Assembly (NCBI GenBank): GCA_902614835.1
Contig: CACMMU010000009.1
Location: 1-40,219, forward strand
Origin: an uncultured Pelagibacteraceae bacterium
GTDB lineage: Bacteria; Pseudomonadota; Alphaproteobacteria; Pelagibacterales; Pelagibacteraceae
Direction: 5' to 3'
Length of the DNA: 40,219 nucleotides
Notes under the pieces: model-generated
What the model was told of the DNA's origin: nothing
The model's database searches: none
The model's input: only the letters and a program-made list of their open reading frames with translations
In this document: positions 21,160 to 28,578 of the stretch, one piece after another
How positions within the stretch are numbered: the first letter of the stretch is position 1
How the letters are laid out: every line of letters begins with the position of its first letter
Program-made: the position numbers and the translations under genes

Positions 21160-22059
21160 ATGAGAACAAAATCTTTAAACCCTAATTTACCATCTCTTGC
21201 TGGAGAGGGAAGCCTGTCACTATACCTTTCTCAGATTAAAAAATTCCCAATTTTAGATGCAGAGGAAGAATATATGTTAGCGAAAAATTGGAAGGATAGA
21301 GGGAACTTAAAGTCAGCACATAAGCTTGTTACTAGTCATCTAAGACTAGTTGCAAAAATTGCAATGGGTTACCGAGGGTATGGTTTACCGATGACAGAAA
21401 TTATATCAGAAGGAAATATTGGATTAATGCAAGCTGTTAAAAAGTTTAATCCAGACAAAGGATTTAGATTAGCTACTTACGCTATGTGGTGGATTAAAGC
21501 CTCTATTCAAGAATATGTTTTAAGATCTTGGAGTTTGGTAAAAATGGGAACAACTGCTGCACAAAAAAAACTATTTTTTAATTTAAAAAAAGTAAAGCAA
21601 CAAATTGCCCCTCGTCAAGAAGGAGATTTAAAAAAAGACCAGGTTGATGCCATATCAGATAAACTTAACGTTAAGCCTGAAGAGGTTATCTCAATGAATA
21701 GAAGAATGATGGCTCAAGAAAAATCACTTAATGATCCTATTAAATCAGACGAAAAGAGTGAGTGGCAAGATTGGATTGTTGATGATAGTTTAGATCAAGA
21801 GCTATTTATTTCGCAAAAGCAAGAATTAGATGAAAAAAAATCTTTGTTACATGAGTCAATTAAAATCTTAGATGATAGAGAAAAAGAAATAATTGAAGAA
21901 CGAAAGCTTTCAGAAAACCCAAAAACTTTAGAGGAGCTTAGTAAGAAATATAAGATTAGCAGAGAAAGAATAAGGCAAATTGAAACAAGAGCATTTGAAA
22001 AACTTCAAAAAGCAATGCTAAATTCTACCAAGTCAAAAAATCTTCTACCAAACAAATAA
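21160..22059 (+). CDS. rpoH: RNA polymerase heat-shock sigma factor (sigma-32)
   Basis: RpoH directs polymerase to chaperone and protease genes. The 299-residue protein shows region 2 (HLRLVAKIAMGYRGYGLPM, LISEGNIGLMQAV-like IISEGNIGLMQAVKKF, RLATYAMWWIKASIQEYVL), the RpoH-specific box QKKLFFNL (135-142), and region 4 with the helix-turn-helix KTLEELSKKYKISRERIRQIE. The RpoH box separates it from RpoD and RpoS. FtsH, which degrades RpoH in other proteobacteria, is encoded at 26567-28462 behind a possible RpoH promoter, so the feedback pair lies within 5 kb. Its stop is 2 bases from the convergent purA stop. Confidence 0.97.
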   Translation: MRTKSLNPNLPSLAGEGSLSLYLSQIKKFPILDAEEEYMLAKNWKDRGNLKSAHKLVTSHLRLVAKIAMGYRGYGLPMTEIISEGNIGLMQAVKKFNPDKGFRLATYAMWWIKASIQEYVLRSWSLVKMGTTAAQKKLFFNLKKVKQQIAPRQEGDLKKDQVDAISDKLNVKPEEVISMNRRMMAQEKSLNDPIKSDEKSEWQDWIVDDSLDQELFISQKQELDEKKSLLHESIKILDDREKEIIEERKLSENPKTLEELSKKYKISRERIRQIETRAFEKLQKAMLNSTKSKNLLPNK

Positions 22060-22061
22060 TT

Positions 22062-24160
<2,099 letters not shown>

Positions 24161-24161
24161 T

Positions 24162-25493
24162 TTATTTTATCGATCTCTTTATTATTTTTATACACCTTAA
24201 AATTAAGTTCTTATCATATGACTCGGCCATAATCCTTATCTTTGGTTCAGTTCCAGATTTTCTAACCAAGATTCTTCCTTTTTGGCCCATAAGTTTATTT
24301 GCTTTTCTGATTGCATTTTTACATTTGGATTTACCAATTATATTTTTATCTTTGACAGATACATTTTCCAAAATTTGTGGCAAAGGTTTAAAAACATTTA
24401 ATAATTGACTGGCCTTTTTGCCTTTTCTTAAGGAGAATAAAACCTCTAATGCAACAAGTAGACCATCTCCTGTCGTTGCAAATTTTCCTAAAATTATATG
24501 ACCAGACTGTTCACCGCCTAGATTGTAATTAAATTTTTTCATTTTTTCCTTAACGTATCTATCTCCTACTTTAGATCTAGAAAATCGTATTTTTTCATTT
24601 TTCAAAAATTTCTCCAATCCATAATTAGACATCAAAGTTCCGATCACTCCACCTTTTAAAATTCTTTTTGATTTCCATCTCCGAGCAAGCATGGCGATTA
24701 TCTGATCACCATCTACGATTTTTCCTTTTTCATCACACATAATTATTCGATCTGCATCTCCATCAAAAGAAATACCAACATTTGCTTTGCATTTTTTAAC
24801 AGCTGCTCTTATTTTAGATGGGTAAGTTGAACCACACTTTTCGTTAATATTTATACCGTTAGGTTTTATCCCCATAGAAACAACTTTTGCACCTAGGTCT
24901 CTAAGTAGTTTCGGTGCTGCCTTGTAGCAAGCACCATTAGCACAATCCAAAACTATTTTTGTACCTCTTAAATGAAAATTCTTTGGAAAATTATTTTTTA
25001 ATATTTTTATATATCTATCATTTCCATCCTCTAATCGTTTAACTCTGCCTAGTAATTTTGGATTTGTAAGTTGCTTTATATTTTTAGCGTCAATTAATTT
25101 TTCAATTTTTTTTTCTATTTTGTCTGATAGCTTCATTCCATCTGGACCAAATAATTTTAGACCGTTGTCGTAATAGGGATTATGTGAAGCTGTAATCATT
25201 ATACCCATATTTGCTCTCATAAATTTTGTCAGCATAGCAAGTCCATTTGTTGGAAGTGGGCCCAAAGTGTAAACATGCATTCCACCAGAAACTAATCCTG
25301 ATACCAATGCAGGTTCTAAAGTATATCCTGACAGTCTTGTGTCTTTAGCTATTATTGCAATTTGTTTAGATTTTTTTTGATTTTTGAAATAAGTACCAGA
25401 GGCCAAGCCAAATTTAAAAAATTTTTCTCCAGTAATATTTCCCTGATTAACGGTTCCCCTAATACCATCTGTGCCAAAATATTTATTCTTCAT
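24162..25493 (-). CDS. glmM: Phosphoglucosamine mutase
   Basis: GlmM converts glucosamine 6-phosphate to glucosamine 1-phosphate for UDP-GlcNAc, feeding peptidoglycan and lipid A. The 443-residue protein begins KYFGTDGIRGTVNQG, has the phosphoserine loop GIMITASHNPYYDNGLK with S103, the metal loop SFDGDADRII, the sugar loop NLGGEQSGH and the phosphate loop VRKSGTEPKIRIM. The ftsH-folP-glmM order is widely conserved in proteobacteria. Its ATG overlaps the folP stop by one base. No glmS or glmU is present in the window. Confidence 0.98.
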   Translation of the reverse strand: MKNKYFGTDGIRGTVNQGNITGEKFFKFGLASGTYFKNQKKSKQIAIIAKDTRLSGYTLEPALVSGLVSGGMHVYTLGPLPTNGLAMLTKFMRANMGIMITASHNPYYDNGLKLFGPDGMKLSDKIEKKIEKLIDAKNIKQLTNPKLLGRVKRLEDGNDRYIKILKNNFPKNFHLRGTKIVLDCANGACYKAAPKLLRDLGAKVVSMGIKPNGININEKCGSTYPSKIRAAVKKCKANVGISFDGDADRIIMCDEKGKIVDGDQIIAMLARRWKSKRILKGGVIGTLMSNYGLEKFLKNEKIRFSRSKVGDRYVKEKMKKFNYNLGGEQSGHIILGKFATTGDGLLVALEVLFSLRKGKKASQLLNVFKPLPQILENVSVKDKNIIGKSKCKNAIRKANKLMGQKGRILVRKSGTEPKIRIMAESYDKNLILRCIKIIKRSIK

Positions 25494-26554
25494 TAATTTA
25501 ATAATATTTTTTTAAAAACCAATATTCCTTGTTTTACCTCATTAACATTGTGTACTCTAAAAATCTGAACACCTTGTGACAACAAATAAAGAACAGATGC
25601 TAACGTTCCACCAGTTCTATCTAAACTATCATACTTACCAGATATTTGATTGATAAACCTCTTTCTTGAGGTTCCAACCAAAATAGGAAAGCCTAGACTA
25701 TGAAACAAAGATATTTTAGAAATTAAAGTCAAATTATGTTTCAAAGTTTTACCAAAACCAATTCCAGGATCTAGAATAATTTTTTTATCTTTTAATTTGT
25801 TTTCAATTTTTCCCTCAAAAAAATCGTAAATATCTAATAAAACATTTCTATATTTGGGATTTTTTTGCATAGTATTTGGTGTTCCTTGCATGTGGTGAAG
25901 AATTTTAGAGATATTATAATTTTTTAATATTATTAATGTATTTGGATCGAACTCGAAACCCGAAACATCATTTATTAAATCTACGCCCCCTTTGATGCCT
26001 TTAATCATTAAATCAGATTTTCTTGTATCAAGAGATAGGCAAGTTTTTTTATATTTTTTTTTAAATTTTGTTAAAACATGTTTAACCCTTTTCCATTCAA
26101 TTTTTGGATCAATCGTTTTAGATCCAGGTCTTGTTGACTCTCCTCCGATATCAATAATATTTGCTCCAGATTGAATCAAACTAGATATACGTTTAAAGGA
26201 TTTATTCTTTGCATTAAATTTGCCTCCATCAGAAAAACTGTCGGGGGTAAGATTTAAAATACCCATAATAGAAGTCTCTGAAAAATTTATGTTATTTAGG
26301 AAATTTTTTCTTTTTGAAATGATTTTCTTTAAATCTTTCTTGATAACCTTTTTAATATTTTTTTTGATATTTTTTATATCTTTAATATGAATAACATTGC
26401 TTGTTATCTTTTTTTTTCCCCTTGTAAAAATTTCAATTTTATCAAAGGCTATATCTTTTTTACCATTCAAAGGAAAAGCTTTGTTTGATTTAATGAGACT
26501 CGTTGCGGCTTTTCCATGATAAAAATTACACGCCCTAGTGTAATACTTTCTCAT
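25493..26554 (-). CDS. folP: Dihydropteroate synthase with N-terminal extension
   Basis: FolP condenses p-aminobenzoate with hydroxymethyl-dihydropterin diphosphate in folate synthesis. The catalytic barrel starts near residue 95 with IMGILNLTPDSFSDGG, followed by ANIIDIGGESTRPGS, NDVSGF, HHMQGTPNTMQ, DPGIGFGKTLKHNL and GTSRKRFI. The first 90 or so residues (KYYTRACNFYHGKAAT, PLNGKKDIAFDKIEIFTRG) form an extension seen in several alphaproteobacterial FolP proteins, explaining the 353-residue length. It lies 12 bases downstream of ftsH and overlaps glmM by one base. Confidence 0.96.
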   Translation of the reverse strand: MRKYYTRACNFYHGKAATSLIKSNKAFPLNGKKDIAFDKIEIFTRGKKKITSNVIHIKDIKNIKKNIKKVIKKDLKKIISKRKNFLNNINFSETSIMGILNLTPDSFSDGGKFNAKNKSFKRISSLIQSGANIIDIGGESTRPGSKTIDPKIEWKRVKHVLTKFKKKYKKTCLSLDTRKSDLMIKGIKGGVDLINDVSGFEFDPNTLIILKNYNISKILHHMQGTPNTMQKNPKYRNVLLDIYDFFEGKIENKLKDKKIILDPGIGFGKTLKHNLTLISKISLFHSLGFPILVGTSRKRFINQISGKYDSLDRTGGTLASVLYLLSQGVQIFRVHNVNEVKQGILVFKKILLN

Positions 26555-26566
26555 GATTTAATTATA

Positions 26567-28462
26567 TTATAATGCTGGTTTTGGTTTTAAACCAATAGAA
26601 TCTATTGCTGAAGAAGCTTTATCTTCAGATTCTTCTTCTTTCTTAGATAGTTTAGCAGGTTGTATGTTTTTCAAAATTAAATCTCTTATTTCATCACCTG
26701 ATAATGTTTCATAAACAAGCAATGCTTTAGCAATTTTATGAAGATCATCAATTTTTTCTGTTAAAACTTTTTTAGCTCTTTCATAACTGGTGTCGATAAT
26801 TTTTTTAACTTCCGCATCTACTTTTTTGGCTGTTTCTTCGGACATATTTTGTTGTCTAGCAATTGATCTACCTAGGAATACTTCCTCCTCGTTTTCGCCA
26901 TATGCTACTGTGCCAAGATCTTTACTCATTCCGTATCTTGTGACCATATTTTTTGCCATTTTTGTTGCCATATCAATATCAGATGATGCGCCTGATGTTA
27001 TTTTTTCATATCCAAATATTAATTCTTCTGCGATCCTACCACCCATAGCTACAGCAATATCTGAGTACATTTTCTCTCTTGTTACAGACAGTTGGTCTCT
27101 TTCTGGAAGTCTCATTACCATCCCTAATGCTCTACCTCTAGGAATGATTGTAGCTTTATGAATTGGATCAGATGCTTTTTCATTAAGAGCAACTATCGCA
27201 TGTCCGCCCTCGTGATAAGCAGTTAGTTTTTTCTCTTCTTCGCTCATCACCATTGATCTTCTTTCAGCGCCCATCATTACTTTATCTTTTGCTTCTTCAA
27301 CATCAGACATTGTAACGACTCTTTTATTTTTTCTAGCTGCTAATAACGCTGACTCGTTAATTAAATTGGCAAGATCAGCACCAGAAAAACCTGGCGTACC
27401 TCTTGCAATAGTTCTTAATTTTACATCTGGTCCAGTATTAATTTTTCTTATATGAACTTTTAAAATAGCTTCTCTTCCAAGAATATCTGGATTAGGAACT
27501 ACTACCTGTCTATCAAATCTTCCCGGACGTAAAAGAGCAGGGTCTAAAACATCTGGTCTATTTGTTGCGGCAATCAGTATGATACCTTCATTAGTATCAA
27601 AACCGTCCATTTCAACTAGAAGCTGGTTAAGTGTTTGCTCTCTTTCATCATTTCCTCCGCCCAGTCCCGCACCTCTGCTTCGACCAACAGCATCAATCTC
27701 ATCAATAAAAATAATACATGGAGCGTGCTTCTTACCTTGTTCAAACATATCCCTCACTCTAGACGCACCTACACCCACGAACATTTCAACAAAATCTGAT
27801 CCTGATATTGTGAAAAAAGGTACATCGGCTTCTCCAGCTATAGCTTTGGCTAAAAGTGTTTTTCCTGTACCTGGTGGACCAATAAGCAAAGCTCCTTTGG
27901 GAATTTTACCACCCAACCTTCTAAACTTTTTTGGATCTTTTAAAAATTCTACAATCTCTTCGACTTCCTCTTTTGCCTCTTCAATTCCTGCTACATCATT
28001 GAAAGTAACTTTGCCTTGAGCTTCGGTTAATAGTTTTGCTTTTGACTTTCCAAACCCCATGGCTCCGCCTCTTCCGCCTTGCATTTGACGCATAAAAAAT
28101 ATCCAAACCCCAATAAGTAATAACATTGGGAACCAAGACAAAAGTACACCTAGTAATGATGGCATTTTATCTTCTACTGGAGAAGCAACAATGCTTACTC
28201 CTTTGTCTGAAAGTTTTCCTACAAGCTCAGGATAATTTGGCGAATAAGTTTTAAATTTAGATCCATCCGATAATACGCCGTTTATATTATTACCTTGTAT
28301 CTCTACTTGCACTACTCTTCCTGAGTCAACTTCCTTAAGAAATTTTGAAAAAGGAATTTGCTCGCTTTGAATTTTTGCTCCTCGTGGCTCCTGGAAAAGA
28401 TTAAATAGTCCAACAGATAAAAGGACTATTAAACCCCACATTATTAAATTTCTAAAGTTCAT
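26567..28462 (-). CDS. ftsH: ATP-dependent membrane zinc protease FtsH
   Basis: FtsH is a hexameric inner-membrane AAA+ protease that removes damaged membrane proteins and regulatory substrates such as RpoH and LpxC. Two membrane helices (about 7-23 and 103-124) flank a periplasmic domain. The AAA module has Walker A GPPGTGKT (195-202), Walker B IIFIDEID (250-257), and the second region of homology from about 298 with [18 protein letters not shown]. The zinc site is HEGGH (417-421). The 631-residue length is typical. The start at 28462 sits directly behind a probable heat-shock promoter; M8 is an alternative start. It follows tilS by 116 bases, a large gap in this block. Confidence 0.98.
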
Positions 28463-28500
28463 ACTATATAAATAGGTATTTTTTTAATTTTAACAAGTAT
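28463..28500 (-). promoter_or_regulatory. Candidate RpoH-type (heat-shock) promoter of ftsH
   Basis: On the minus strand CTTG (plus coordinates 28494-28497) is followed after exactly 17 bases by CCTATTTATA (28467-28476). The published alphaproteobacterial heat-shock consensus is CTTG-N17/18-CYTATNTNNG; only the final G differs. The box ends 4 bases before the ftsH ATG, so the message would have little or no leader. A 12-base palindrome AAACAATTGTTT (28511-28522) lies just upstream of the CTTG. Confidence 0.55.
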
Positions 28501-28578
28501 ATTGAATTAAAAACAATTGTTTAAAATGAGGCAATTTGTACCGCATTTGAACAAGAATTTATGAATTTGGGATATTTT

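Follow-up and report, generated by a model that had tools for sequence, protein, structure and literature searches.

The closest described systems are the RpoH promoters of Sinorhizobium meliloti, reported as CTTGAA-N15-16-CCTATAT for RpoH1 and CTTGCC-N15-16-CCTATCT for RpoH2 (PMC4843759). In the same organism, ftsH is given among the genes induced by pH stress, while lon, grpE, and ibpA are described as RpoH1-controlled (PMC2976971). A review centered on Caulobacter states that FtsH acts on sigma-32 and that ftsH is upregulated together with the heat-shock genes (PMC8119881); the control of ftsH by RpoH is in itself already known. Leaderless transcripts have likewise been catalogued within the α-proteobacteria, with 171 transcripts of S. 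meliloti reported to start at the A of the AUG (PMC3616915) and 88 leaderless transcripts reported in Methylosinus sporium, where they are said to derive mostly from stress regulators and toxin-antitoxin genes (PMC12403871).

The DNA analyzed here, referred to below as the window, is the whole stretch of 40,219 nucleotides from an uncultured Pelagibacteraceae bacterium, and it is assigned to SAR11, one of the most abundant bacterial groups of the ocean, because its FtsH is 97% identical to that of Pelagibacteraceae bacterium AG-430-I06, the closest named FtsH. The ftsH gene (26567..28462, minus strand) encodes 631 amino acids, scores 880.4 bits against TIGR01241 (cut-off 600), and is preceded by tilS across a gap of 116 bp. 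Heat-shock promoters of the α-proteobacteria follow the consensus CTTG-N17-CYTATNTNNG, and the first-pass annotation had placed such an element directly before ftsH. The sequence agrees: on the minus strand, the −35 element CTTG (28497-28494) is followed by a 17-nt spacer (28493-28477), the −10 element CCTATTTATA (28476-28467), the bases TAGT, and the ATG beginning at 28462, such that every base of the consensus but the last is matched and the box lies, as annotated, 4 bases from the start codon. With its CTTG, its α-type spacing, and a −10 element of the C(C/T)TATNT kind, the box resembles the RpoH promoters of S. meliloti, sharing both their spacing (CTTGTT-N15-CCTATTT) and the CCTATNT −10. 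Unlike those promoters, it carries TT rather than AA after CTTG, is AT-rich, and stands directly before the ATG.

The bare pattern, taken without its final G, matches only once in the window, at the ftsH box itself, and has 7 matches genome-wide (858 kb), compared with 7 for a reversed control pattern. Pattern enrichment was consequently dropped as an argument, and it is position and conservation that carry the evidence for the box. Conservation was assessed in 118 genomes of the family, among which 97 rows showed a match from FtsH residue 1; 90 upstream regions were used after seven rows were set aside (G055, G039, G022, a second copy in G047, G085, G071, and G065). CTTG, exactly 17 nt, and a −10 element of the type (C/A)(T/C)TA(T/C)NT were present in 90/90 of these upstream regions, spanning 12 genera, although the genomes are relatives of one another and such counts do not represent independent events. 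Scored over seven positions, 48 of the sites matched at all 7, 41 at 6, and 1 at 5. The element is still recognizable in the sister family, in 19/19 readable upstream regions of 20 (that of G120 being too short), where it lies 47-77 nt from the ATG. Outside the order, ftsH loci of the Mesorhizobium type carry CTTG-N18-CYTAT-like sites about 86 nt upstream, in contrast to the SAR11 box. The existence of the box before ftsH is, on these observations, confirmed.

Assigning the box to a sigma factor requires more than its −35 element. CTTG is also the −35 of SAR11 rRNA promoters (CTTGAT-N17-TATAAG/C; loci L355-L370) and is thus insufficient by itself to indicate RpoH; the geometry CTTG-N19-TAT, likewise common to the rRNA promoters, was discarded as proof of RpoH use. 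Two sigma-70-family genes were found in the genome, and one report describes SAR11 as possessing only sigma-70 and sigma-32 (PMC13198564). Comparison was extended to other heat-shock genes in 26 genomes picked from the 118, in which groES was found in 23, dnaK and lon above their cut-offs in 25 and 23, respectively, and hslV was read next to hslU in 20. A search for the same pattern before such genes, as suggested in the first-pass annotation, was positive for groES, dnaK, hslV, and lon: a CTTG-type promoter precedes each of them in most genomes examined, in the forms CTTGAAA or CTTGTAG with a −10 of CCCATAT, CCATAT, or CTTATAT. The promoters of groES, dnaK, and hslV were read in the window's own genome, while lon, whose copy there is cut at the contig end, was read in relatives only. 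For clpB, also suggested, the outcome was divided, as the gene is missing at the family cut-off from 25/26 genomes, yet the same kind of site precedes the clpB of the remaining one, G005.

Of the 81 distinct sites before groES, dnaK, lon, and hslV, 44 were used to build a heat-shock PWM (model R2), with no ftsH site included. Under this model the ftsH box of the window ranks 1 of 80374 window positions, compared with 1307 of 80374 under a matrix built from no more than 14 of the 16 orthologous rRNA promoters examined (those of G005 and G003 were left out), a small basis that weakens the test. Across the family, 87/90 ftsH sites score higher under the heat-shock PWM than under the rRNA PWM, only 65/90 do so when the −10 part is considered alone, and the box is the top heat-shock-PWM site within the 250-nt upstream region in 81/90. 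Additionally, every one of the 90 ftsH sites and all 44 of the other heat-shock promoters carry a T seven bases into the −10 element, where rRNA promoters mostly have A. A scan of 25 whole genomes with R2 also recovered gene kinds on which the model had not been trained, namely the small heat-shock protein gene (seven genomes) and clpB (the sole genome possessing it), which supports the model. Counting against the likeness, no ftsH site appears among the matches listed from that scan (E to about 0.17), suggesting that the ftsH box, with TT after its CTTG, belongs to a divergent subclass. The same TT type of box stands before lon in G007, G009, and G040, representing three genera, where other genomes have the CTTGAAA/CCATAT version, and this links the subclass to the heat-shock set. 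A further model, R1, was built from 40 of the 79 distinct ftsH sites; it places ftsH first in 22/24 genomes (with lon first in G040 and a coding match first in G008), a result that follows by construction and was given no weight.

Taken together, conservation and likeness to other heat-shock promoters support an RpoH-type promoter before ftsH, and use of the box by RpoH is, judged from these comparisons, quite likely. Were the box instead a housekeeping promoter served by RpoD, with RpoH not involved, the CTTG and TAT register common to the rRNA promoters and the missing ftsH among the R2 matches listed would find a ready explanation, but the contrast between the two ranks, the preference of nearly all ftsH sites for the heat-shock PWM, and the invariant last T argue against it; the box does not resemble the rRNA promoters (CTTGAT-N17-TATAA), and we consider this reading quite improbable. 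Somewhat less so, though still doubtful, is a dual promoter in which RpoD would act from TTTACA or TTTAAA-N18-TATACT lying over the CTTG and RpoH would start transcription 35 nt further on. The window does contain TTTAAA-N18-TATACT (28496..28525, minus strand; 9/12 matches), a weak sigma-70-like site whose −10 overlaps the CTTG, and in the genus g4 the case is stronger, TTTACA occurring 18 nt before the −10 in 16/19 genomes and an exact TATACT over the CTTG in 14/19. Within the window's genus, by comparison, TATACT is found in only 3/15 genomes, sites at this score number 3 in the window against 2.1 in shuffled sequence, and the upstream regions of the other genera, as read, lack this element. 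The overlapping site thus appears convincing in g4 and not in the window's genus. A conserved block, TTTTGTCTTATTTACAAC (TTGT-N7-ACAA), was also noticed about 50-75 nt before the ATG in g4 ftsH upstream regions (e.g., L025-L039), with a looser form in the window's genus; part of it may be a sigma-70 −35 element. The 12-base palindrome AAACAATTGTTT (28511..28522), proposed earlier as a possible regulator site, is indeed present, but an operator role was rejected given that it occurs in 1/90 ftsH upstream regions, that of the window's own genome, and that the window contains 16 perfect 12-bp palindromes; it is judged a product of chance.

If RpoH serves the box, the distance from the C of CTTG to the A of the ATG becomes informative, as a CTTG located 35 nt from the transcription start is normal for sigma-32 promoters. 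In the window this distance is exactly 35 nt. It is also 35 in 44/90 ftsH genes, at most 42 in 83/90, and never below 35, the box lying 43-77 nt from the ATG in the other 7/90 and the sister family taken together. Equivalent patterns were seen for lon (35 in 11/20, at most 42 in 19/20) and hslV (35 in 7/20, at most 42 in 20/20), again never below 35, such that 35 is both the floor and the commonest value for all three genes. The distances before groES are 51-63 in the 17 of 22 upstream regions that were accepted, five falling under the score cut, and those before dnaK are 38 in 6/25, all six in the window's genus, and 46-71 in the rest. At distance 35, the base preceding the ATG is a pyrimidine in 43/44 ftsH genes. 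Combined with the spacing of sigma-32 promoters, the 35-nt floor leads to the expectation that ftsH, lon, and hslV transcripts begin no more than about 5 nt from the ATG. A study of S. meliloti looked for promoters whose ends lie 5-12 nt ahead of the start (PMC3616915).

These data suggest that the mRNAs of ftsH, lon, and hslV are probably leaderless; for ftsH itself, where the predicted transcription start coincides with the start codon (28460..28462, minus strand), we hold leaderlessness to be reasonably probable on the strength of the 35-nt floor. The first-pass annotation had considered translation from either the 5' end or M8. The latter can be rejected, since Asn2 and Asn5 are kept in 90/90 FtsH sequences while their codons vary between AAT and AAC, indicating that the first codons are translated and that the start is codon 1; the start is ATG in 90/90. 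With a cruder site finder than that used for the distances, which left the groES of G005 without a site, and with the groES of G011 (wrong start) and the lon of G008 (cut contig) omitted, Shine-Dalgarno (SD)-like motifs were counted in 21/21 long-leader groES, in 17/19 long-leader dnaK, and in 2/126 short upstream regions of ftsH, dnaK, lon, and hslV together. Because only 5/34 window genes have an SD-like motif, the missing SD is weak support for leaderless mRNA, and it was dropped as a strong argument. That same scarcity, along with the frequency of distances of 36-40, would suit a reading in which genome compaction brings the short distance about as a side effect and transcripts carry a leader of a few bases. 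The 116-bp gap between tilS and ftsH, however, offers ample space, and that three unrelated genes should share a sharp floor and mode at 35 accords with selection on an exact start, so that we regard a short leader as rather unlikely and favor leaderless transcripts. A leaderlessness of this kind would differ from the sets of S. meliloti and Methylosinus in being linked to a single sigma factor and to protease genes, and in being predicted from geometry alone. Within the literature searched, which lay mostly outside subscription journals, we found no description of SAR11 RpoH promoters, transcription starts, or leaderless heat-shock mRNAs, and a fixed, putatively leaderless geometry over ftsH, lon, and hslV in the Pelagibacteraceae appears undescribed there.

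The gene encoding the presumptive user of the promoter lies close by. As annotated, rpoH, encoding the heat-shock sigma factor (21160..22059, plus strand; TIGR02392, 357.9 bits, cut-off 323.1), is present, although the distance of about 5 kb given for it was loose, the separation being 6.4 kb measured to the box and 4.5 kb measured to the end of ftsH. Downstream of ftsH, folP, glmM, thiD, and purA (22062..26554, minus strand) are closely packed and probably form an operon with it, and purA converges on rpoH with 2 bp between the stop codons (22059-22062). A search around the purA-rpoH junction of the window detected no terminator-like site. The order ftsH-folP-glmM-thiD-purA meeting rpoH is the same in 8/8 other family genomes examined and in one sister-family genome, except that thiD was not found in the latter. 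In these nine other genomes (L403-L411) the interval between the purA and rpoH stop codons runs from −11 (overlapping) to +15 bp, such that in all 10 genomes the two convergent units, the ftsH operon and rpoH, end in stop codons that abut or overlap. Among 30 purA loci, comprising the window and 29 drawn from the class, rpoH lies within 1.5 kb in 9 and is always convergent, which indicates that the purA-rpoH convergence predates SAR11. Outside SAR11, ftsH and rpoH are not known to adjoin, and the tail-to-tail meeting of the ftsH operon with rpoH would set SAR11 apart from the sigma-32/FtsH loop of E. coli and Caulobacter. Neither this meeting of the ftsH operon with rpoH nor the putatively leaderless geometry shared with lon and hslV had been remarked upon in the first-pass annotation.

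By analogy with those organisms, a feedback between RpoH and FtsH may be proposed. RpoH-bearing RNA polymerase would initiate at the A of the ftsH ATG or no more than a few bases away, and the ribosome would begin the leaderless mRNA at codon 1; lon and hslVU, and dnaK in the window's genus, would use the same geometry, while the groES leader, which includes a ribosome-binding site, is retained. The FtsH so made would degrade RpoH, closing a loop of the kind described in E. coli and Caulobacter. What the sequences themselves display is conservation, likeness to heat-shock promoters, the fixed distance to the start codon, the presence of rpoH, and gene order; that RpoH uses the box, that the transcript starts where predicted, and that it is translated without a leader are inferences, and turnover of RpoH by FtsH is presumed from E. 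coli and Caulobacter. The account as a whole, joining an RpoH promoter of the ftsH operon, a leaderless ftsH mRNA, and the loop, is in our judgment likely.

A sequence definition of SAR11 RpoH promoters would make the heat response readable from any SAR11 genome, and should the protease mRNAs prove leaderless, SAR11 would constitute a natural test case for the use of leaderless translation under proteotoxic stress. A wider conjecture, which we consider unlikely as a whole, is that the heat-shock response of the Pelagibacteraceae divides at the ribosome, with leaderless RpoH-dependent mRNAs for the proteases FtsH, Lon, and HslUV, an SD-led GroES, and an RNA-thermometer-led small heat-shock protein, and that RpoH-driven read-through from ftsH to purA continues into rpoH, whose 3' end overlaps, and helps to shut that gene off by antisense or collision. 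The antisense shut-off of rpoH is offered purely as an idea.

The small heat-shock protein gene was itself examined at seven loci (L327, L335, L336, L339, L346, L352, and L354, at about positions 1500-1600 on the matched strand). An Rfam search of the Hsp20 leader, with E values allowed up to 5, turned up no match to ROSE. The gene has an RpoH-type promoter and a leader of 50-60 nt containing a conserved hairpin in which 4/9 pairs are changed on both sides, and a TTGCT following the hairpin is predicted to pair with the SD in 6/7 single folds, an arrangement resembling a ROSE RNA thermometer.
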